A stretch of 63,119 bases of DNA from Ralstonia sp. ASV6 (lineage in GTDB: Bacteria > Pseudomonadota > Gammaproteobacteria > Burkholderiales > Burkholderiaceae), in contig NZ_JAELUI010000008.1 of NCBI RefSeq assembly GCF_016429285.1, positions 1 through 63,119 on the forward strand, written 5' to 3'. A model generated the notes under the pieces. That model was not told where the DNA came from. It searched no databases and saw only the letters and a list, made by a program, of their open reading frames with translations. This document shows positions 5,660-19,135 of the stretch, one piece after another; position 1 is the first letter of the stretch; each line of letters opens with the position of its first letter. Both the position numbers and the translations under genes were made by a program.

Positions 5660-7561
<1,902 letters not shown>

Positions 7562-9382: not shown

Positions 9383-10222
9383 TCAACGGAAGCCGTTCTT
9401 CCACTCGCGCAAAGCGGCGAATACGGCCACCGGATCTTTTGTATCAATACCGGCGTGACGAGCCACCGCTTGCGTTACTTCAGGCGCGTCCGATCGTACA
9501 AAAGGGTTGGTCGCGCACTCGTGGCCAACGGTGGTGGGCACAGTCGAGCGGCCGTCGGCCCGCAGCGCCCCGACCTTAGCCTCCCAGGCGGCCAAGCTGG
9601 CGTTGCCCGGCTCGACTGCGCGTGCAAAGCGCACATTCGATGCGGTGTACTCATGCGCGCAGTAAACAAGAGTGGTTGGCGCCAGCGCCGCCAGCTTGGC
9701 CAGCGATGCACGCATCTGCGCGGGCGTGCCTTCAAAGAGCCGGCCACAACCCGTCGCGAATAGCGTGTCACCGCAAAACAGGCTGGCAGGCGCCTTGTCG
9801 CCTTGCAGATGGCCGACGTAGGCGACATGGCCACTGGTGTGACCCGGCACATCAAGCACGCGGAACGTGGCGGCCGGCTGAGCGAGCGAGACGATGTCGC
9901 CTTCGCGTACGGCCTGGGTGCGGCACGGGATAGATTCGCCTGCCGGGCCGATTACCGGCAACGGTGCACCCTCGGGATTCTCCGGATACGCGGCGACCAG
10001 TTCTCGCACCCCACCAACGTGATCGCCGTGGTGATGTGTGATTACAATGGCACCGAGCGCAAGCCCGCGCTCCTGCAGAAAGCGCAGCACCGGTTGCGCG
10101 TCGCCTGGGTCCACGACAGCAGCCACGCGGCCATCATGAAGCGCCCAAATATAATTGTCGGCAAACGCGGCGATCGCCTCTACCTCAAGTGCTGCCACCA
10201 GCGGCACACCACCCTGGACCAT
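9383..10222 (-). CDS. gloB: Hydroxyacylglutathione hydrolase (glyoxalase II)
   Basis: This hydrolyses S-lactoylglutathione to lactate and glutathione, the second step of methylglyoxal detoxification. The metallo-beta-lactamase motif [10 protein letters not shown] binds the metal pair, and the family opening [14 protein letters not shown] is present. [17 protein letters not shown] and [13 protein letters not shown] match the C-terminal half. With the ATG at 10222 the protein is 279 residues, slightly long. In-frame GTG codons a few residues later (around [12 protein letters not shown]) would give the more usual ~265-270. The ATG overlaps the start codon of the divergent methyltransferase gene. 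Confidence 0.93.
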
Positions 10223-11129
10223 GCCCGACTCCTCTAACGATCGTCGCATTATAGATTGGCACCACTGGCTGGCTTCACCGCCTGGACAGTACGTCCTACG
10301 CTGGGAGCAGGCGCAATTCGATCGCACCGTGGCCGACATGTTCGGTTTTCACGCGCTGCAACTCGGCCACCCTGGCTTTGGCGCGCTGCGCGAGAACCGC
10401 ATCCCCCTGATTGCGCGCGTGATCGACGATATCGACCCGACCGCCCCCATTGAAACGCTCGACCCAATGGACGGCGACCCGGCCGAGCCCGTAGACGCCT
10501 CCGCCGACGGCGAGAGCGATGCCAGCGCGACCCAGCGTCAGGCCAAGCCTCGTGTGATCTGCCGCTACGACGAACTGCCGTTCGCCTCGCAAAGCATCGA
10601 CCTCGTAGCCCTGCCCCATGTGCTGGAATTCACAGACGACCCGCACGAAGTGCTGCGCGAAGTGGCGCGTGTGCTGATGCCTGAAGGGCGATTGATCATC
10701 ACCGGCTTCAACCCGCTGAGCCTGTGGGGCATGCGCCAGGGCATGCGGCGCCTGGGTACGGAATCGTTCCTGCCCGCGCAAAGCCAGATGATTGCCTTCA
10801 CCCGACTGAAAGACTGGCTCAAGCTGCTCGGATTTGATATCGTGCGCGGCCGTTTCGGCTGCTACCGCCCACCCAACCGTACCGAAAAGTGGCTGCAGCG
10901 CACGGCCTTCATGGAGAAGGCTGGCGATCGCTGGTGGCCGATCTTCGGGGCGGTCTACATGCTGCAGGCCGTCAAGCGCGTGCGCGGCATGCGTATGGTT
11001 GGCCCCGCATGGAAGACCCGGAAGTCTCCCACGCTGGTGCCGGCTGGTACGCCAGTCGCCACGCCATCGGGTTCGCATTCGACCAAGACGCCGCCGGCCG
11101 CCGCGTGCGAGGGCAAATCGGGCGCGTAA
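10221..11129 (+). CDS. Class I SAM-dependent methyltransferase (YafS-like)
   Basis: This is a 302-residue cytoplasmic protein with a degenerate Methyltransf_11 fold. After the N-terminal [20 protein letters not shown], the conserved block [20 protein letters not shown] is followed by [20 protein letters not shown]. The latter is the motif preceding the last Rossmann strand in this family. It sits between gloB and rnhA as yafS does in enterobacteria. The target is unknown. The C-terminal ~40 residues are Pro/Thr/Ala-rich and low complexity. The start at 10221 keeps the conserved N-terminus but overlaps the divergent gloB ATG by two bases. Confidence 0.85.
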
Positions 11130-11183
11130 CTTCAGCCGATCGGCGCTGCCGCCCTCACCCACTCACTGATCGCTTTCGTATTC

Positions 11184-11639
11184 ATGCAGGAAGTTACCGT
11201 CTATTCCGATGGCGCATGCAAGGGCAACCCCGGCCTTGGCGGCTGGGGCACCGTGCTCGTCTCGGGCGGCCACGAAAAAGAACTCTTTGGCGGCGAAGCC
11301 GTCACCACCAACAACCGCATGGAGTTGATGGCCGTCATTGAAGCGTTTCGTGCGCTCAAGCGGCCGTGCCGGGTCAAGGTCTACACCGATTCGCAGTACG
11401 TGCAGAAAGGCATCAGCGAATGGCTGGCCGGCTGGAAAGCACGCGGCTGGAAGACCGCCGACAAGAAGCCCGTGAAGAACGACGACCTGTGGCGCATCCT
11501 CGATGAGCTCGTCGTCACGCACGAGGTGAGCTGGCACTGGGTAAAGGGCCATGCTGGCCACCCCGGCAACGAACGCGCCGATGCGCTCGCCAACAAGGGC
11601 GTGGAGTTGGCGCGTCAGGCATTGCAGGCTGGCGCCTGA
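11184..11639 (+). CDS. rnhA: Ribonuclease HI
   Basis: This degrades the RNA strand of RNA:DNA hybrids such as R-loops and primers. At 151 residues it is close to the E. coli enzyme. The catalytic carboxylates are visible in [21 protein letters not shown] and VYTDSQYV, and the late Asp in GNERADALA. The handle region ([20 protein letters not shown]) is intact. It follows the methyltransferase gene by 54 bases on the same strand and converges with the secreted-protein gene at 11654. Confidence 0.97.
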
Positions 11640-11653
11640 CGCGCCGCCAACGC

Positions 11654-12163
11654 TCACCTGCCAACGCAGCGCACTGTCGGGATTTGCGGTGCATTGGGTA
11701 GGACGGTAGTGACGTATTGCGGTTTGCCCGCCTGGTCGAAGATCAGGCGCAGCGGGCCCCGCTTGGATAAGCCGTCATCAATGTCCGCCTGCAGCAAACC
11801 ACTCTGCCTCCAAAGGTCCCCGCCGACACTGCGCTTCTGCATCATGGCAGGACGATTGGTGCCGTCAGCCCAATTGGCGTCGCGCTCAGGCACATAGCGG
11901 TTGGGCAGCGTGCCATAGGCATAAAGCGCATTCAGCGTGTCGGCAAGGTACCGCCCGGCCTGTTCATTGAAGCGAGGCAGATCCTGCCGCACAAGTTCGG
12001 CGCCGATGCGTTGGGCTTCGGCCGTACAAGTGGGCAGAGCTTCGTCGGCCGCTCGCGCATAGGAAACACCCATCGCAATGGCGGCGGCAGCCACCCAGAT
12101 CAGCACGCGATGCAGCTGGCGCGGGGGAACGGTGTGAATCACGGACATCGGTTCGTTACGCAT
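11654..12163 (-). CDS. Small secreted protein with two cysteines, last gene of the DUF2589/lysozyme cassette
   Basis: I do not recognise this family. From the ATG at 12163 the protein has 169 residues. An N-terminal signal-like segment (LIWVAAAAIAMGVSYARA, predicted cut after ARA) indicates export to the periplasm. The mature part has just two Cys, one near its start (LPTCTAEAQ) and one at its end (PTVRCVGR), suggesting a clamp-like disulfide. It follows the lysozyme gene by 38 bases on the same strand, so cotranscription is likely. An inhibitor of, or partner for, the lysozyme is one possible role, based only on position, size and predicted export. Confidence 0.65.
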   Translation of the reverse strand: MRNEPMSVIHTVPPRQLHRVLIWVAAAAIAMGVSYARAADEALPTCTAEAQRIGAELVRQDLPRFNEQAGRYLADTLNALYAYGTLPNRYVPERDANWADGTNRPAMMQKRSVGGDLWRQSGLLQADIDDGLSKRGPLRLIFDQAGKPQYVTTVLPNAPQIPTVRCVGR

Positions 12164-12201
12164 GGAGGTTCTCCGGTTGAACAACGTTGTGGTGCTGGCA
12201 A

Positions 12202-12654
12202 TCAGGACAGAAACAGCCGGCGCTCAGCCTGGCGACGTTTGGTCAACCCCTTTAGCGCTTTGCCGCCGGCCTTGTCCCATAGGAGAAACTGATCGGCAGC
12301 CCCCGCGTAGTCGCCCGCATTGAGCTTGCGCAGCAGCGTTGACGAGCGCAGCCGCCCCGCCCCCAGGTTGAATACAAACGACGCCAGCGCGTCGAATTGC
12401 CCCTGCGTGATCGATACCCGCACGGCGCGGGCGATGCCCTGCTCGGTGTCGTACAGGTCTTTGCGCAGCAAGGCTTCGGCCTGCTGTTGCGAGATCGGGC
12501 CGTTGAAGGTCTCGCCGGGCCGGATGAGGTGGCCATAGCCGATGGTCGGCTTGCCGACGGCATCGAGATACGTGGACAAGCGCAGGCCTTCGGACTCCTT
12601 GATGAGGGCGAGGCCCCTCTCGCCTGTAGTGCGCGGGTTGTTGTCAGTGCTCAT
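12202..12654 (-). CDS. Phage-type lysozyme (GH24, T4-lysozyme-like)
   Basis: This is a peptidoglycan N-acetylmuramidase of 150 residues. The T4-type triad has exact spacing: Glu22 in KESEGLRL, Asp31 in YLDAVG and Thr37 in PTIGYGH (offsets 9 and 15, as in T4 E11/D20/T26). The C-terminal part (FDALASFVFNLGAG, LLRKLNAGDY, KGLTKRRQAER) also matches the family. There is no signal peptide or signal-arrest-release helix at the chosen start, so export would need help. Its ATG lies 11 bases inside the end of the upstream gene, with an AGGAGA ribosome-binding site 7 bases before it. No other phage gene is nearby. Confidence 0.9.
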   Translation of the reverse strand: MSTDNNPRTTGERGLALIKESEGLRLSTYLDAVGKPTIGYGHLIRPGETFNGPISQQQAEALLRKDLYDTEQGIARAVRVSITQGQFDALASFVFNLGAGRLRSSTLLRKLNAGDYAGAADQFLLWDKAGGKALKGLTKRRQAERRLFLS

Positions 12655-13408
12655 CGCTCTTCTCCTGGGGCGTGCTGTTGGGGGTGGCGTCCGGCGCTGC
12701 GTCGGCCTTGACTGGCCGCGGCAGCAACCGGTTCGTGTATTCATCGATCAACCGCATCACGGCCTCAGGCGGCTGCAGCGCGGTGAACTTCATCTGGATG
12801 TCGATGTGCTCGCTATCGCGGCCGCCACCGTCTCCTGCACCACGCTTTGAATGCGGTGCGAGCGAAACGTAGAACTTGCCAACGCCACCTACGCCACCTT
12901 GCGCAGGCAGGGTCTCGGCCAGATCGCTGCGCACGGTCATGTCCACGGTCATCTCGTCGAGCGCGAGGCCACGTGGCACGGCCAGCGACACCAGCGGCAA
13001 CGCGAGCCGGTGCTGACTGTCGAGCGCCAGCTCCACCTCGCGGGCAACCAGCGTGCCGTTTTCATCCGCATCAAAGAACTGATCGAGCAGCACGGTGTAT
13101 TGCTGCGCCAGCATCTGATTGGCCGATGAGGCAGCGTGCTGCATGCCGCGCGTGATGTCGTCGAGCGTGAGACCGTTGAAGCCCGGATGTCCGTGGCTGT
13201 TGCTGCCACCGCCGGCACCACCACCGGGCGGTGACGAGCTGGGGGGCGACGGTGCATCGGCCCCGGCTGGGGGCGGTGTATCCGATGCCGCGCCTTGAAA
13301 CGGTGCGGCGCCGGAAGGCATATCAAGCTGCGCAGACGACGCAGGCGCCATATTGGCGAGTGGCGCGCGGTCGTCGTCACGCCGCCGCCGGCTGAAGAGT
13401 TTGAACAT
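12644..13408 (-). CDS. DUF2589-like protein with Gly/Pro/Ser-rich N-terminus
   Basis: This protein has 254 residues from the ATG at 13408. Residues 1-90 hold a basic start (MFKLFSRRRRDDDR) and a Pro/Ser/Gly-rich linker. After LTLDDITRGMQHAASSANQM comes a segment resembling the DUF2589 core: a helix (MLAQQYTVLLDQFF), then predicted beta-strands (VSLAVPRGLALDEMTVDMTV, KFYVSLAPHSKRG, HIDIQMKFTA). The ending PPEAVMRLIDEYTNRLL parallels PPEALMRVMEFLTDAAT in the upstream DUF2589 protein, so the two are divergent paralogues. Function is unknown. It lies between DUF2589 and lysozyme genes and overlaps the latter by 11 nt. Confidence 0.75.
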   Translation of the reverse strand: MFKLFSRRRRDDDRAPLANMAPASSAQLDMPSGAAPFQGAASDTPPPAGADAPSPPSSSPPGGGAGGGSNSHGHPGFNGLTLDDITRGMQHAASSANQMLAQQYTVLLDQFFDADENGTLVAREVELALDSQHRLALPLVSLAVPRGLALDEMTVDMTVRSDLAETLPAQGGVGGVGKFYVSLAPHSKRGAGDGGGRDSEHIDIQMKFTALQPPEAVMRLIDEYTNRLLPRPVKADAAPDATPNSTPQEKSDEH

Positions 13409-13521
13409 GGTGTCGGGCTGAACGAGGTCAATGGGCGACGCGCGGCCCAATTGAGGCAGAACGCGCGCCGGTCAGGACACCAGCTGTGGGGAGGCGGGCC
13501 GGTGCCCATCGCCGAAGTGGC

Positions 13522-14190
13522 TTACGGGTTAGCCGGAGCCGGGGCCGGGGCGTTGCCGCCGGCGGGCACCTTCTCACCAACCATCGTGCCGTCGGTCGGC
13601 GTGGCCGGCAGCGGCTTGACGTCGTTCTCCTTGCCCTTCACCACCACCGGCTTGGTGGCAGCGTCGGTCAGGAATTCCATCACGCGCATCAGCGCTTCAG
13701 GCGGGTTCTGGCGCTTGACCTGAGTGTGGAAGGAATACTTGGCACGTGTATCAGTGCTGCGCGTCTGCTCCGATTTGTGGGAGGCGCGGCCCGACACCGA
13801 CACGCTGAACGGGCCCCAGCCCAGCTTGGCCTGGAACGAACCCTCCGCCTCGGTGGACGAAGACGACTTTTCCGACTGCGAGATTTCCAGCTCGAAGTCG
13901 ATCGTGCCTTCTTCGATGGCAATTACCGGATGCACAACCGCACACAGCAGCGGAATGCGCATCGTCTTCTGGATCGTGCCCTGCGACACACCCTTCTCAT
14001 CGACGATGGTTTCGTCATAGTCGAATTGCACCGCAACGGCCTTGCCATTCTGAATACACACCTGCAGCAGAAAATCCGCATAGGATTTTGCTGCCGAGGT
14101 TTGCGCCGCGATCATTGCCTGCAGCGGCGCGGAGATCATCTTGTCGATCGGCAGCGCGTTGATAACCGATCCGATAAGTCCGTTGTCCAT
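13522..14190 (-). CDS. DUF2589 domain protein, first gene of the cassette
   Basis: This is a 222-residue protein. The N-terminal helix region (ALPIDKMISAPLQAMIAAQT, then AAKSYADFLLQVCI) matches the typical DUF2589 opening. A beta-rich middle follows (AVAVQFDYDETIV, MRIPLLCAVVHPVIAIEEGT, IDFELEISQSEKSSSS). The second half resembles the segment in which these proteins are compared to themselves (GPFSVSVSGRASHK, AKYSFHTQVKRQNPPEALMR). There is no signal peptide or clear membrane helix. A clean AAGGAG sits 8 bases before the ATG, and a long leader hairpin abuts it. The family has no established function that I know of. Confidence 0.82.
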   Translation of the reverse strand: MDNGLIGSVINALPIDKMISAPLQAMIAAQTSAAKSYADFLLQVCIQNGKAVAVQFDYDETIVDEKGVSQGTIQKTMRIPLLCAVVHPVIAIEEGTIDFELEISQSEKSSSSTEAEGSFQAKLGWGPFSVSVSGRASHKSEQTRSTDTRAKYSFHTQVKRQNPPEALMRVMEFLTDAATKPVVVKGKENDVKPLPATPTDGTMVGEKVPAGGNAPAPAPANP

Positions 14191-14200
14191 TTAAAACTCC

Positions 14201-14251
14201 TTACTTTGAATTATTTTGACGCACAGGTTTGTGCGCCAAAATCCAAAGTAA
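14201..14251 (-). promoter_or_regulatory. Long imperfect inverted repeat abutting the DUF2589 ribosome-binding site
   Basis: The arms 14201-14225 and 14230-14251 are near-complementary: TTACTTTG at the outer edge pairs with CAAAGTAA, ATTTTG with CAAAAT, and CGCACA with TGTGCG at the inner edge. The loop is about 4 nt. In minus-strand mRNA the hairpin would end exactly where the AAGGAG ribosome-binding site starts. This placement fits translational control, a 5' stabiliser or a dyad operator. Bases 14252-14439 hold no gene. Confidence 0.7.
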
Positions 14252-14439
14252 GTGCTTTGACGACGAGGTTCGATGCCACGAAAGTCCCAGTCGTGGCCCC
14301 AGTACAGCGGCCTAATACCTGGCGATAACCCGCCCGTGACTTTCGGCACTGAACTTCCGTTTCAATGCACCCGGATCATTCGCGCCCTACAAAATAATCG
14401 GTTTCGCTTGAGAATAATTAACCGAAGTACGAGGGGTCG

Positions 14440-15099
14440 ATGAATATTCTGGTAATCGATAGCTTGCCGCTTTTTGCGGCAGGTGTGTCCAATGTATTGA
14501 ATGCACTCGATGCACAGGGTGTGTTTATCGATACACACTATTCCGCGTCAATTGGACCAGCCTGCAGAGAGGCAGAGCCCAGCGCGGTGGTCATGGAATG
14601 GAGTGCGCAGGATGATGATGCGCGGCAGCGCCTGTCAGACCTGAAAGCCGTCTTGCCGGAAGTGCCTGTCTTGCTGACGGTGCAGGCCGTTGGCCGGCAC
14701 GTGGTGGGCGATGCGTTGCGTTTTGGCGCCGCCGGTGTGGTCGACCGCCAGGCCACCGCCGATGTTCTGCTCGAAGCTTTGCAGCGCATCACTTCGGGCG
14801 CGGTCTATCTGCCGCCCATCAGCAACCTGTACCCCGATGATCCGCGACAGGCCAGCGGCGAAAGCCCGGCCGAAGTGTGGCGCCGCCTTACGCCGCGCCA
14901 GCACGAAGTGCTGCAATTGCTTGCTGAAGGCAAATCCAACAAGCAGATCTGCCGCATGCTCAATGTGGCCGAAGGCACCATCAAAAATCATCTGTACGCG
15001 CTGTTCCGGCAGATCGGGGTGAGCAACCGCACGGAGGCCGCACTCTGGCTGTCGCGCTGTAAGGCCGGCATTGCACGCCTGCAACTGTGTGCGATGTAG
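14440..15099 (+). CDS. LuxR/NarL-type regulator with degenerate receiver domain
   Basis: This 219-residue regulator has an N-terminal response-regulator-like domain and a C-terminal LuxR helix-turn-helix (LTPRQHEVLQLLAEGKSNKQ, then VAEGTIKNHLYALFRQIGVS). The receiver is degenerate. The usual Asp-Asp pocket reads IDSLP, the phospho-acceptor Asp is replaced by Glu53 (AVVMEWSAQ), and the conserved Lys loop reads GVVDRQ. It is therefore probably not controlled by phosphorylation, and Glu may mimic the active state. It is divergent from the DUF2589/lysozyme cassette across 249 bases, so it is the likely regulator. An inverted repeat (TCGGTT...AACCGA) lies just upstream of its GAGGGG ribosome-binding site. 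Confidence 0.85.
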   Translation: MNILVIDSLPLFAAGVSNVLNALDAQGVFIDTHYSASIGPACREAEPSAVVMEWSAQDDDARQRLSDLKAVLPEVPVLLTVQAVGRHVVGDALRFGAAGVVDRQATADVLLEALQRITSGAVYLPPISNLYPDDPRQASGESPAEVWRRLTPRQHEVLQLLAEGKSNKQICRMLNVAEGTIKNHLYALFRQIGVSNRTEAALWLSRCKAGIARLQLCAM

Positions 15100-15298
15100 C
15101 CGGGGGATTGGATCGAGCCGCCGGTCACGTGCGGGTGCCGGCGGCCATACACACTGACACACGCCTCGTGCCGCGAGAGAAACCCAGGGTTGACGCCGGT
15201 CTAAACCGCTTCGTAACGACATTGCATTCAGCCACTCGCGCCATACACTGGAGCAATAGCGGCGCACGGCGCATCGCCTTTTTTCATGGAGGCCGGCC

Positions 15299-15577
15299 AT
15301 GAAATCGATTGAATTCCACACAGGCACTCCGCGCTACTGCGCAGCAGATCTCACCCTCACCTGCACCGCCAGCGTCGATGGCACGTACGCCTGCTATGCG
15401 GTGACGGCGGAGGCACTGGAAGAACATTTCGGCGCCCGCTCCTGGCGGCAGGAAGATCTGCTGCAAGCGATGGAAACCCATCGCGGAACCATCGAAGACA
15501 TGGCGCGCTCGCTGTTCAAGCTGACCGACTCACACAACATCGTGCTGCGCAGCGGACACTTTCGCTTCGGCATGTAG
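15299..15577 (+). CDS. DUF1488 family protein
   Basis: This small cytoplasmic protein has 92 residues and resembles DUF1488. It has an N-terminal beta region, then VDGTYACYAVTAEALEEHFG, and a helical C-terminal half with ETHRGTIEDMARSLFKL. Function is unknown. A GGAGG ribosome-binding site precedes the ATG. It is codirectional with the phasin-like gene 173 bases downstream. No catalytic motif is visible. Confidence 0.75.
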   Translation: MKSIEFHTGTPRYCAADLTLTCTASVDGTYACYAVTAEALEEHFGARSWRQEDLLQAMETHRGTIEDMARSLFKLTDSHNIVLRSGHFRFGM

Positions 15578-15750
15578 CGCAAGCATCTCAGAAGGTGGCG
15601 CCACCCCGGTTGCGTCACCTGCCAAGGGCGGTTTCGCCTGCACCAGAACAGCGAACGGCCTTTGGGGGACCGGGGGAGAAAGGGGCGCCATGCGAGACAG
15701 CGGACAACATCGGCAGGGCCTCGCCACCCACCCATTTTTGGAGGCACGCC

Positions 15751-16242
15751 GTGCAAGCACCGATCGATCTCTCCCTCGAAGTCTTTCGCACTCAGCTACA
15801 AACCGCCCTGCACACCCTGACCACGCTGGAGGAAACGCAAGAACGCGCGCTCAAAATCACGCTTAAGGGCGTGGAAGATGCGGAGCGGCGCGCACTGCAA
15901 GCCTGCGCCTCAGTTTCTGAAGCTACCAACTGGGAAGACCTGGCCGCGCTGCCGGCCATCCTGCTGCAAACCCGCATCGAGCAAAGCAGTCGCCTCTTCC
16001 AGACCATCCTGAGTATGGTGAACGAGCAGCAGAACGCCCTGTTACAACAGGCCACCACATCGGCAGAAGCCTGGCGCACGCTGGCGACACATTGGGGAGA
16101 CGAACCGATGATCGCACCAGTCCGCGCTCTGTTCGGCGCGCTGAGGGCCACGGAACTGCAAGGCATGCCGCAAACACTTCAGCCTTCAGACAAGAAAAAG
16201 GCGAGCGCGAAACACGCTGAGCCCGCTGCCCCGGCGGTGTGA
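15751..16242 (+). CDS. Phasin-like protein
   Basis: This is a 163-residue, almost entirely helical protein with a Lys/Ala-rich tail (KKKASAKHAEPAAPAV), typical of phasins that coat PHB granules. I chose the GTG at 15751 because TTGGAGG lies 6 bases before it and the preceding in-frame codons look non-coding. The core (FRTQLQTALHTLTTLEETQE, NEQQNALLQQATTSAEAWR) has amphipathic heptad-like patterning. A second phasin-like gene lies at 59055. Assignment is by composition and fold class, so moderate. Confidence 0.65.
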   Translation: MQAPIDLSLEVFRTQLQTALHTLTTLEETQERALKITLKGVEDAERRALQACASVSEATNWEDLAALPAILLQTRIEQSSRLFQTILSMVNEQQNALLQQATTSAEAWRTLATHWGDEPMIAPVRALFGALRATELQGMPQTLQPSDKKKASAKHAEPAAPAV

Positions 16243-16270
16243 GCACAGCAACGCACCGGCGGTTGACGCG

Positions 16271-17779
16271 CTAGTCAGGCTTGCACTCGTACTTCATTTC
16301 GCGCCGACCGTCTTCGTAGACCACCTCCAGCCGGCAGGTGAAACCCCAGAGCCGGGTAACGTGGCGCACCATCTCTTCGTAGTTGCTGCCCAGGGGGCGG
16401 CGGTGGTTCTGCTGATGCCGCATGGTCAACGAGCGATCGCCCCCCACGTCCACATTGGTGACCTGGATGTTCGGCTCGATATTGGACAGGTCGTACTGAC
16501 TCGCCAATAGTTGGCGAATCATGCGATAGCCCTCGTCGTCGTGGATGGCGGTCACGCGCAGCTTGGGCTCGCGATCGTCATCCAGCACCGAGAACAACTT
16601 CAGCTCGCGAATCACCCGCGGTGACAGGAACTGCAGCAGAAAGCTCTCGTCCTTGAAGTTGCGCATGGCAAAGTCGAGTGTTTCCTGCCAATCGCTGCCG
16701 GCGATCTCGGGGGCCCAGCGGAAATCTTCATCGGTCGGGGCTTCGCAAATGCGGCGGATGTCCTGAAAGATCAGGAAGCCAAGCGTGTACGGATTGAAGC
16801 CGCTGTAGTACGGGCTGTTGTATGGGGGTTGATAAATCACATTGGTATGTGCCTGCAGCAACTCCAGCATGAAGGCATCGTTGACGAGCTTTTCGTCGTA
16901 TAGCTTGTGCAGGATGGTGTAGTGCCAGAACGTAGCCCAGCCTTCGTTCATGACCTTGGTCTGCCGCTGCGGATAGAAGTACTGTGCGATCTTGCGCACG
17001 ATACGCACAATCTCTCGCTGCCAGGGCTGTAACTTCGGCGCGTTCTTCTCGATGAAGTAGAGAAGGTTCTCCTCCGGCTCTAGCGGAAACTTCGGTTCCG
17101 GCTCTGGCGCATCGTCTGCGGTGGCTAGCGCATGCGCACGGTGCTTGGGCAGCGTGCGCCATAGGTCATTGACCTGCGCCTCCAGGTATTTTTCGCGTTC
17201 GTCCTGGCGCGCTTGCTCCTCGGTAATCGACAGTTTCTTGGGCCGTCGGTAGCGGTCCACCCCGTAGTTCTGCAGCGCGTGGCATGAATCGAGCAGCAAC
17301 TCCACTTCCTGCTCGCCATAGCGGCGTTCGCACTCCGCCACATAGCTCTTGGCGAACAGTAGGTAGTCAACAATGGCGTCAGCGTTGGTCCAGGTGCGGA
17401 AGAGGTAGTTGCCCTTGAAGAAGGAGTTGTGGCCGTAGCAGGCGTGCGCGATCGTCAGCGCCTGCATCGGCATCGTGTTCTCCTCCATCAGGTAGGCGAT
17501 GCAGGGGTTGGAGTTGATGACGATCTCGTAAGCCAGCCCCATCTGGCCGCGCTGGTAGCCGCGCTCGGAAGCCAGAAAATGCTTGCCATATGACCAGTGG
17601 TTGTAGCCCAGAGGCAAGCCGGACGACGCATAGGCATCCAGCATCTGCTCTGCGGTAATGATCTCGATCTGATTCGGATACGTGTCCAGACCAAACTCGC
17701 CGGCAATGCGGGCGATGTTCTGGTCATAGAGCTTGATCAGATCGAAGGTCCATTCCGAGCCTGTCGAAAGATAGGCCAT
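16271..17779 (-). CDS. SpoVR family protein
   Basis: This is a 502-residue member of the SpoVR/YcgB family, close to the usual length. Conserved stretches include LPLGYNHWSYGKHFLASERG, YEIVINSNPCIAYLMEENTM and HACYGHNSFFKGNYLF in the N-terminal half, and KVMNEGWATFWHYTILHKLY in the middle. The His/Glu-rich pattern looks metal- or active-site-like, but no activity is established. It is last in prkA-yeaH-spoVR, a set conserved in many proteobacteria and linked to stationary phase and nutrient stress. A 93-base gap separates it from yeaH. Confidence 0.93.
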   Translation of the reverse strand: MAYLSTGSEWTFDLIKLYDQNIARIAGEFGLDTYPNQIEIITAEQMLDAYASSGLPLGYNHWSYGKHFLASERGYQRGQMGLAYEIVINSNPCIAYLMEENTMPMQALTIAHACYGHNSFFKGNYLFRTWTNADAIVDYLLFAKSYVAECERRYGEQEVELLLDSCHALQNYGVDRYRRPKKLSITEEQARQDEREKYLEAQVNDLWRTLPKHRAHALATADDAPEPEPKFPLEPEENLLYFIEKNAPKLQPWQREIVRIVRKIAQYFYPQRQTKVMNEGWATFWHYTILHKLYDEKLVNDAFMLELLQAHTNVIYQPPYNSPYYSGFNPYTLGFLIFQDIRRICEAPTDEDFRWAPEIAGSDWQETLDFAMRNFKDESFLLQFLSPRVIRELKLFSVLDDDREPKLRVTAIHDDEGYRMIRQLLASQYDLSNIEPNIQVTNVDVGGDRSLTMRHQQNHRRPLGSNYEEMVRHVTRLWGFTCRLEVVYEDGRREMKYECKPD

Positions 17780-17872
17780 GCTCGTTCCCCGTTGACTCCG
17801 TCACATGCTGCAGCGTGTTTGCCGCATGTTGGCAAATACGTCGGGCCAATGCAGCGCCGCGGGCACTGCCAT

Positions 17873-19135
17873 TCAGGTGGTGCGCTTCTGGAACAAATCG
17901 TGCAATACCGGATAGATCTCGTCGGCCTTGAGGATGCGCTGCATCGCAAAGTTCTCGTATGCAGCCTGCACCGTAAGATACTCCTCCCACAGGTTCTGTG
18001 GCTCCGTCGAGACCACCTCGATGTACGCGAAATACTGCGTCACCGGCAGGATCGATTCGCGCAGCAGCTGGGCGCAAAGCTCTGAATCCCCCGCCCAGTT
18101 ATCGCCGTCCGACGCCTGAGCGCAGTAGATGTTCCATTGGCTGGGTGGATAGCGATCATGGATCACTTCCGTGACGAGCTTGAGCGCGCTCGATACCACC
18201 GTGCCGCCAGATTCACGTGAGTGGAAGAAGTCCTCCTCACTGACCTCCTTGGCCACGGTGTGGTGACGGATGAAGACGACGTCGATGCGTTCGTAGTTCC
18301 GCTTCAGGAACAGGTAGAGCAGCATGAAGAAGCGCTTGGCAAGATCTTTGCGCTGCTCATCCATCGAGCCCGACACATCCATCACGCAGAACATCACCGC
18401 CTGCGCCTGTGGACGCTTGCGTTGCACGCGATTGTTGTAGCGCAGGTCGAGCTTCTCGATAAAGGGCACACGATCGAGGCACGAGCGCAGGTGCCGCATC
18501 TCCTTCATCAGCTCCAACGCGCGGGCACAGTACGGCCCGTCGTTCTGGAGTACCTCGTTGTACTCAGTCTCCAGTTCATGCAGGCGCCGCTGATACGGGC
18601 TGGATAGCGCAATGCGGCGGCCGAGGGAGCTGCGCATCGTGCGCAGGATGGACAGGTTCGAAGGCGTGCCGTCCAGCGAATAGCCAGCCCGCACCTTGCG
18701 CACCTCCGCGATCTTGGCCAGGTGCCGCTTGGCCATGTCGGGCAGCGCCATGTCCTCGAAGAAGAAGTTGAGGAAGTCCTCGCGTGAGAGCGTGAAGACA
18801 AAGTCGTCCTCGCCCTCGCCCGAATCACTCGCCTGGGAGCCCGTACCACCGCTGCCCTGCTGCTGGCGGTCGAAGCTGTCGCCCCGGACAAACTGCCTGT
18901 TGCCGGGATGGACGCCCTCCCGGCGCCCGCCCGAGCCGTGGTGGAACATAGGCTCGGAGATGTCCTTGACCGGAATGGACACCTGCCCGCTCTGCTCGAT
19001 GTCCATGATCTTCCGGCCGGACACCGCCTTGGCCACCGCGCGACGGATCTGCTCCTTGTAGCGCTTGATGAAGCGCTGCTTGTTGACGGTACTCTTGCCG
19101 CCGCCGTTCTCCCGCCGATCGATGATCGTGCCCAT
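17873..19135 (-). CDS. yeaH: YeaH/YhbH family protein (DUF444, von Willebrand A-like)
   Basis: The protein has 420 residues from the ATG at 19135, the conserved family start MGTIIDRRENGGGKSTVNKQ. The C-terminal half holds a vWA-like fold with the MIDAS signature FCVMDVSGSMDEQRK (DxSxS metal site). The middle is Gly/Ser/Gln-rich and low complexity, as usual for the family. It is the partner of the PrkA kinase in the prkA-yeaH-spoVR operon and acts in the cytoplasm. The molecular role is unknown. Confidence 0.93.
   Translation of the reverse strand: MGTIIDRRENGGGKSTVNKQRFIKRYKEQIRRAVAKAVSGRKIMDIEQSGQVSIPVKDISEPMFHHGSGGRREGVHPGNRQFVRGDSFDRQQQGSGGTGSQASDSGEGEDDFVFTLSREDFLNFFFEDMALPDMAKRHLAKIAEVRKVRAGYSLDGTPSNLSILRTMRSSLGRRIALSSPYQRRLHELETEYNEVLQNDGPYCARALELMKEMRHLRSCLDRVPFIEKLDLRYNNRVQRKRPQAQAVMFCVMDVSGSMDEQRKDLAKRFFMLLYLFLKRNYERIDVVFIRHHTVAKEVSEEDFFHSRESGGTVVSSALKLVTEVIHDRYPPSQWNIYCAQASDGDNWAGDSELCAQLLRESILPVTQYFAYIEVVSTEPQNLWEEYLTVQAAYENFAMQRILKADEIYPVLHDLFQKRTT

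Follow-up and report, generated by a model that had tools for sequence, protein, structure and literature searches.

How a lysozyme with no export signal comes to be used by the cell that encodes it, and what the DUF2589 proteins encoded beside it contribute, are questions raised by a small gene block of Ralstonia sp. ASV6. The block lies on contig NZ_JAELUI010000008.1, in a stretch of 63,119 nucleotides (nt) referred to here as the window. Its minus-strand genes, taken from position 14190 downward, code for two DUF2589 proteins (A and B), for a lysozyme of family GH24 and for Sec, an exported member of the barnase family; a gene for a LuxR-type regulator diverges from A (Table 1). The block is probably, if by no means certainly, a phage-derived lysis or release cassette in which the lysin is exchangeable and the soluble DUF2589 pair acts as a lysin partner of a kind not described before.

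The DUF2589 pair and its lysozyme recur as a unit

Among relatives of A in named bacteria, the best 80 of 240 were analysed as loci. Our own choice of open reading frames (ORFs) was crude and at times mistaken; the counts were taken from phmmer or tblastn over all ORFs, with seven types of hydrolase as queries and a GH24 gene taken as a partner when within 2 kb of the A–B span. B stands alongside A in 77 of the 80 loci, and the remaining three end within 350 bases of A. A GH24 gene is found in 42 loci, a pesticin-type gene in seven (2e-47 in Pseudomonas L084), a GH19 gene in one and none of the queried hydrolases in 30, and no further copy of the seven types was detected elsewhere in the 1.25 Mb of locus DNA. 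Recurrence of the DUF2589–GH24 adjacency beyond close relatives had been set in advance as a test of the original prediction, and the 42 loci, which reach far outside Ralstonia, show that recurrence.

The order regulator, A, B, lysozyme recurs in Ralstonia, Burkholderia, Paraburkholderia and Trinickia (tblastn, phmmer), and the order A, B, lysozyme in Kosakonia, Ewingella, Rahnella, Cedecea, Pseudescherichia and an Ochrobactrum. In Pectobacterium loci, B, the lysozyme gene and a gene for a membrane protein (TM1) precede A, which lies some 0.4 to 3.7 kb further on. In the window the lysozyme gene starts inside the end of B, since its likely ATG is at 12654 and B ends at 12644. This 11 nt overlap has its counterpart in 41 of the 42 GH24 loci, the other one showing a gap of 10 nt, and the spacing of the catalytic triad (E-x8-D-x5-T) is intact in all 42 lysozymes. 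The chromosomal position differs among genera, because in L041 to L044 and L046, five longer stretches that represent other genera of the family, the Ralstonia flanks rnhA and SpoVR were not found beside the cassette. In pairwise comparisons of 41 loci, the sequence identities of A, B, lysozyme and regulator correlate with one another (r 0.91 to 0.95). Genes that move as a set should behave in this way, but common ancestry by itself also yields high values. With the window's genome included, the family sample has DUF2589 in 20 of its 150 genomes and 3 of its 25 genera, the class sample in 3 of 369 genomes and the phylum sample in 9 of 398; it was found in none of 14 named control genomes.

Within the genus, 12 of 16 congeneric genomes carry DUF2589 and the same 12 carry GH24, with the GH24 gene beside the pair in each, while the other four have neither; this shared, side-by-side presence argues that the pairing is not due to chance. 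Extra GH24 genes occur elsewhere in four of the 12. Positions 10101-18000 of the window were compared by blastn with four relatives without the cassette (G002, G009, G010 and G011). In G011 the alignment runs to 11620 and resumes at 15212, so that regulator, A, B, lysozyme and Sec are gone together; the identity of this relative to the window is 98.7% in rnhA and 99.4% in SpoVR. The regulator is counted in the unit because this gap takes in all five genes. G010 retains a broken fragment of the Sec gene (L289, about 6011-6378), which favours a deletion there, and the stretches of G002 and G009 that were compared likewise yielded none of the five. The five genes are one unit of gain or loss. The self-contained module proposed earlier thus holds as far as the absence of the whole block from a close relative is concerned, but the proposal had overlooked the regulator as a fifth member.

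Table 1. Features of the DUF2589–lysozyme block in the window
Feature	Position	Strand	Basis
DUF2589 protein A, 222 residues, first cassette gene	13522..14190	-	PF11655, E 3.2e-25
DUF2589 protein B, 254 residues	12644..13408	-	PF11655, E 2.6e-12; likely ATG 13408
GH24 lysozyme, 150 residues	12202..12654	-	PF00959, E 1.5e-45; likely ATG 12654, AGGAGA upstream
Sec, exported barnase-family protein, 169 residues	11654..12163	-	N-terminal hydrophobic segment; likely ATG 12163
LuxR-type regulator, divergent	14440..15099	+	PF00196, E 8.5e-18; receiver domain 0.011
Block missing as one piece in relative G011	about 11621..15211		blastn

The starts of B, lysozyme and Sec in Table 1 were judged from the sequence, the ORF list having placed all three too far upstream. 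Promoter- and terminator-like sites are about as numerous as in shuffled sequence.

Exchange of the wall hydrolase

The partner of the DUF2589 genes is not always GH24. Fourteen distant loci were studied (L148 to L156, L039, L040 and the plasmid loci L130, L131 and L132), and a hydrolase was identified in nine of them. These are a GH24 enzyme in another family of the class (L150, 1.2e-45, two genes between), an amidase-3 (L151, 4.3e-10), a PF11860 muramidase, or N-acetylmuramidase (L131, 1.9e-66, five annotated genes between), GH19 enzymes (L149 and L153, the latter seemingly the same record as L085 of the named loci), a pesticin-type enzyme (L154), an M15C endopeptidase (L155, 4.5e-5, two genes between) and MltF-type transglycosylases beside the Vibrio plasmid pairs L132 and L130 (2.7e-39 and 2.1e-49). 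L155 and L152 apparently hold one DUF2589 gene and not a pair. For a random gene, we put the chance of a wall hydrolase within 4 kb at about 5%, a figure that is an estimate and does not come from a matched control set. DUF2589 is linked to seven wall-hydrolase families: GH24, pesticin-type, GH19, amidase-3, PF11860, M15C and MltF-type. The additional families strengthen the original proposal, of which two parts stay hypothetical, delivery or gating of the lysozyme by DUF2589 and protection of the periplasm by the secreted protein. With a constant DUF2589 pair, an exchangeable lysin and a variable set of regulators and accessory genes, these loci are laid out as lysis cassettes are, with a constant component that is new.

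Phage-like contigs and holin-like proteins

In viral contigs the best 80 of 145 relatives of A were examined; three are cassettes of the Kosakonia type and 77 are other, phage-like contigs. A second DUF2589 gene is present in 76 of these 77, an endolysin-like gene in 47 and a small holin-like protein, similar to two query examples, in 39. At L206 a small membrane protein is followed by B, A and a PG_binding_1 protein; the first of these four matches PHROG 2429 (bacteriocin production or immunity, 2.7e-4) and the last several endolysin PHROGs. The endolysin-like protein of L200 matches PHROG 33083 (endolysin, 9.7e-16) but no Pfam family.

Membrane protein TM1 is encoded in 16 of the 19 GH24-bearing Enterobacterales loci. 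By a simple scan it has two or three hydrophobic segments, and a second protein, TM2, has one to three; both have basic tails. TM1/TM2 occur in 45 viral loci, six of them of the Kosakonia type; TM2 is present in 37 of the other 39, and a GH24, PF11860 or M15-like gene in 26, the misses including stretches that end early. The two proteins are termed holin-like because they co-occur with lysins in viral contigs. Neither has a Pfam holin match, TM2 has no PHROG match, and TM1 matches PHROG 1024 (unknown function, 0.014-0.085) and one other family weakly. Self-lysis or release is the function suggested for the cassette by the kinds of lysin, by the neighbouring holin-like genes and by the occurrence in phage-like contigs.

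A phage origin could also mean that the block is a decayed prophage remnant without function, and the endolysin PHROG matches of the window's lysozyme, the DUF2589 genes of phage-like contigs and the broken piece kept by one relative are all compatible with decay. Such a remnant is very improbable, given the intact triad of all 42 lysozymes and an order and overlap conserved at different chromosomal sites; moreover, of the eight Ralstonia-group loci listed, seven have an A with 97-100% identity and one an A with 95%.

A recent prophage in the window is likewise not supported, a search of 50,697 phage records having returned one match to A (4e-5). The earlier statement that no other phage gene lies near the cassette agrees with inspection of the neighbours by eye, which revealed no phage-like gene.

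The DUF2589 proteins and the lysozyme

The four minus-strand genes that had been described from the sequence are confirmed, with A and B as DUF2589 paralogues whose PF11655 scores (89.7 and 47.8 bits) exceed the curated cut-off of 23, and no further PF11655 match was found in the whole genome. B begins with about 75 Pro/Gly-rich residues, followed by the DUF2589 domain. When A, B, lysozyme, Sec, the regulator and two neighbours were scanned for hydropathy by a simple method, Sec alone showed a hydrophobic stretch, so that A, B and the lysozyme have no such segment.

A first structure model of A was poor, with a predicted local distance difference test score (pLDDT) of 51.6; a second one, built on 128 rows with B and viral rows added, reached 67. 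Two helices, a long one at 15-45 and one at the C-terminus, and a beta-sheet form its confident core. Compared with the PDB, the model has no relative at E <0.001; among viral models, the best one carries no name. Helix 15-45 is mildly amphipathic only, and amphipathic beta-strands are spread over several parts of A, with no membrane hairpin singled out. A match of the profile A1 to Vip1 (E 0.025) was too weak to be used. Neither A nor B has a PHROG match below 0.05 (B reaches 0.089 with a family of unknown function), Pfam assigns no function to DUF2589, and in the literature searched PF11655 is unnamed and DUF2589 is named solely in a report on Archaeoglobus (PMC3949148).

The lysozyme scores 155 bits with PF00959 against a cut-off of 22.3 and shows the triad spacing; together with the hydropathy scan, this agrees with its first description as a GH24 enzyme with an intact triad and no export signal. 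No second PF00959 match was found in the whole genome.

The exported barnase-like protein

Sec has a hydrophobic stretch at residues 20-38 and two cysteines, in line with the signal-bearing two-cysteine protein originally predicted. Alone it has no Pfam match. A profile of 19 homologues, the window's Sec included (A2), matches binase/barnase ribonuclease chains, best at 1.1e-12, and these PDB matches rest on the profile and not on the window sequence alone; one Kosakonia homologue searched singly also matches ribonuclease (3.7e-9). The relationship spans about 80-95 residues. In barnase numbering of the catalytic residues, the Glu73 position holds Q, L, A, V or S in 19 of 19 rows (by eye, A2 alignment), and no His occupies the His102 position in any of the 16 rows that reach it (by eye, A2 and HMMER alignments). 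The family thus differs from barnase and binase, to which its sequence is related, by the replacement of both residues and by an invariant Cys near the mature N-terminus. We read Sec as a conserved periplasmic pseudo-enzyme, which may be a brake, an immunity protein or cargo. A literature search on barnase and lysozyme inhibitors brought up only work on hot-spot prediction. In four loci (L075, 10432-10998; L095, L111 and L092), an extra protein with an NSCGAY-like motif including a Cys, noted by eye, is encoded after the barnase-like gene.

Type VI secretion systems (T6SS) pair peptidoglycan-hydrolase effectors with periplasmic immunity proteins, and the signal-less wall hydrolase followed by a small exported protein resembles such a pair. 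The hydrolase could accordingly be a cytoplasmic effector destined for another cell, with A and B as carrier or adaptor and Sec as periplasmic immunity. A small exported barnase-like protein accompanies GH24 in 28 of 42 loci. Six of the seven pesticin-type genes have a different exported protein, SecP, nearby, and 19 of the 30 hydrolase-free loci have SecP without such a gene, as would be expected of orphan immunity. Toxin-like genes are also found in other cassettes, such as the class 3 lipase of L086 and an RNase A-like CdiA-CT domain protein of Kosakonia L081 and L082 (about 11348-11881, plus strand; PF18431, 1.5e-8 in L081). However, no secretion, injection or adaptor gene was noticed in the cassettes read, the exported protein is not found in 14 of the 42 GH24 loci, and the holin-like genes of related cassettes and the phage-like contigs favour lysis from inside. 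We regard interbacterial competition as unlikely.

The LuxR-type regulator

The regulator combines a strong LuxR DNA-binding match with a weak, degenerate receiver domain, and a LuxR-type gene is divergent beside A in Burkholderiaceae loci too. At the presumed phosphorylation position of the receiver (alignment by eye), seven enterobacterial rows have Asp, four Pectobacterium rows Asn, Ochrobactrum Ala, and the seven Burkholderiaceae rows that reach it Glu. The window's regulator likewise seems to have Glu where the phosphorylated Asp is usual. Pseudomonas and Vibrio loci carry a Mor-type regulator in place of the LuxR-type one. A defence system was considered and rejected: the LuxR gene matched several PADLOC models, mostly through its DNA-binding end, and A, B, lysozyme and Sec matched none.

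A LuxR-type regulator could suit a stress response, and the cassette might then make a regulated, non-lethal local cut in the wall, for instance for the passage of a large structure or product, with A and B placing the hydrolase. The MltF-type transglycosylases found next to two Vibrio plasmid pairs belong to a class that includes housekeeping enzymes and would fit envelope remodelling of this kind, as would Pectobacterium L091 (4577-16570), where genes that by eye resemble those for peptide or polyketide synthesis lie between lysozyme-TM1 and A, and after A. Yet the other named partners are mostly lysin-type enzymes, and patchy presence within a genus is unlike a general wall function, which makes remodelling quite doubtful.

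Other genes at related loci

A conserved protein of about 88 residues, with no Pfam match in the two tested, accompanies distant pairs at L149 (8317-8583), L150 (5997-6263), L151 (7458-7712), L130 (6911-7186), L131 (6906-7190) and L132 (6821-7096). In loci of a different DUF2589 subtype, a third related protein, some 220-280 residues long, is encoded between the DUF2589 genes or next to them, with no Pfam match where tested (L039, 1776-2498; L040, 7424-8242; L155, 6354-7028; L156, about 13614). Of the neighbour proteins, that of L104 gave one match, to an uncharacterised chain, and that of L151 none. Upstream of the pair on the Vibrio plasmid L132 (909-4264), an HlyD-type adaptor and a peptidase-domain ABC transporter are annotated, and a second GH24 gene lies upstream of A in Kosakonia L081 and L082.

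A proposed mechanism and what weighs against it

According to the lysis or release reading, a phage-derived cassette kept on the chromosome would cut the cell's own wall from inside, causing lysis or release of contents. The LuxR-type regulator would turn it on and the GH24 lysozyme would cleave peptidoglycan. As a conserved soluble partner, A and B would make the lysin work, be it by binding it, by helping it to cross the membrane or by disturbing the inner membrane, and the exported pseudo-enzyme may work in the periplasm as a lysozyme brake or as cargo.

A close published comparison is with type 10 secretion, in which the holin-endolysin-spanin clusters SmaLC of Serratia and YenLC of Yersinia entomophaga, repurposed from phage lysis cassettes, mediate lytic release, as described in the part of PMC10847048 consulted. 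The window cassette shares with them a chromosomal wall-hydrolase gene that lies outside a prophage (by eye) and near a regulator. Unlike them, it has no holin by the hydropathy scan of seven proteins, a holin not having been sought in the rest of the genome. Its DUF2589 pair and barnase-like protein go unmentioned for type 10 cassettes in that part of the same source. With phage holin-endolysin cassettes it has in common the GH24 endolysin family, and viral TM1-TM2 with a lysin resembles the Enterobacterales versions; it departs from them in its DUF2589 proteins, foreign to PHROG at the threshold given above, and in the LuxR-type regulator of the window.

Several observations weigh against this reading, the main problems being the lack of a holin-like gene in the window version and the many hydrolase-free Pseudomonas loci. 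The hydropathy scan shows no membrane protein in the window cassette except Sec, and TM1 is found in none of the 22 GH24-bearing Burkholderiaceae loci, so that no route of the lysozyme to the wall is visible. In the stretches examined, none of the 39 viral loci with TM1 that are not of the Kosakonia type shows DUF2589 A, and the holin-like pair and DUF2589 are therefore separable. In five of the 30 named loci without a queried hydrolase, the contig breaks off about 350 bases or less from A or B, but 21 of the other 25 are from Pseudomonas, and 22 of the 30, mostly Pseudomonas, have a Mor-type regulator. Among the distant loci, no hydrolase was identified in five (L039, a 4.1 kb contig, L040, L148, L152 and L156), for which the Pfam scan covered 108 neighbour ORFs, with 25 of 74 families among the matches listed, so that a lone hydrolase match could lie outside the list, and only the DUF2589 genes for L148; hydrolase queries were additionally run on L148, L152 and L156. 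A periplasmic protein beside a lysozyme fits an effector-immunity pair too. Finally, Archaeoglobus has, to our knowledge, no murein. Some DUF2589 members may do something other than wall lysis, because a region of DUF2589-related genes is raised on lactate in Archaeoglobus, according to an excerpt of the report (PMC3949148).

In its most general form, which we consider rather unlikely, the lysis reading would make DUF2589 pairs a new class of lysin partners. Soluble and assembled on the inner membrane, they would release signal-less hydrolases of many folds, replacing the holin in Burkholderiaceae and acting beside holin-like proteins in Enterobacterales and phages.

Significance

The link to seven hydrolase families makes the role of DUF2589 testable. 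If the lysis or release reading is true, the pair would represent a new class of component for phage lysis and bacterial release systems, and it may explain how some lysozymes are used without an export signal or an adjoining holin.

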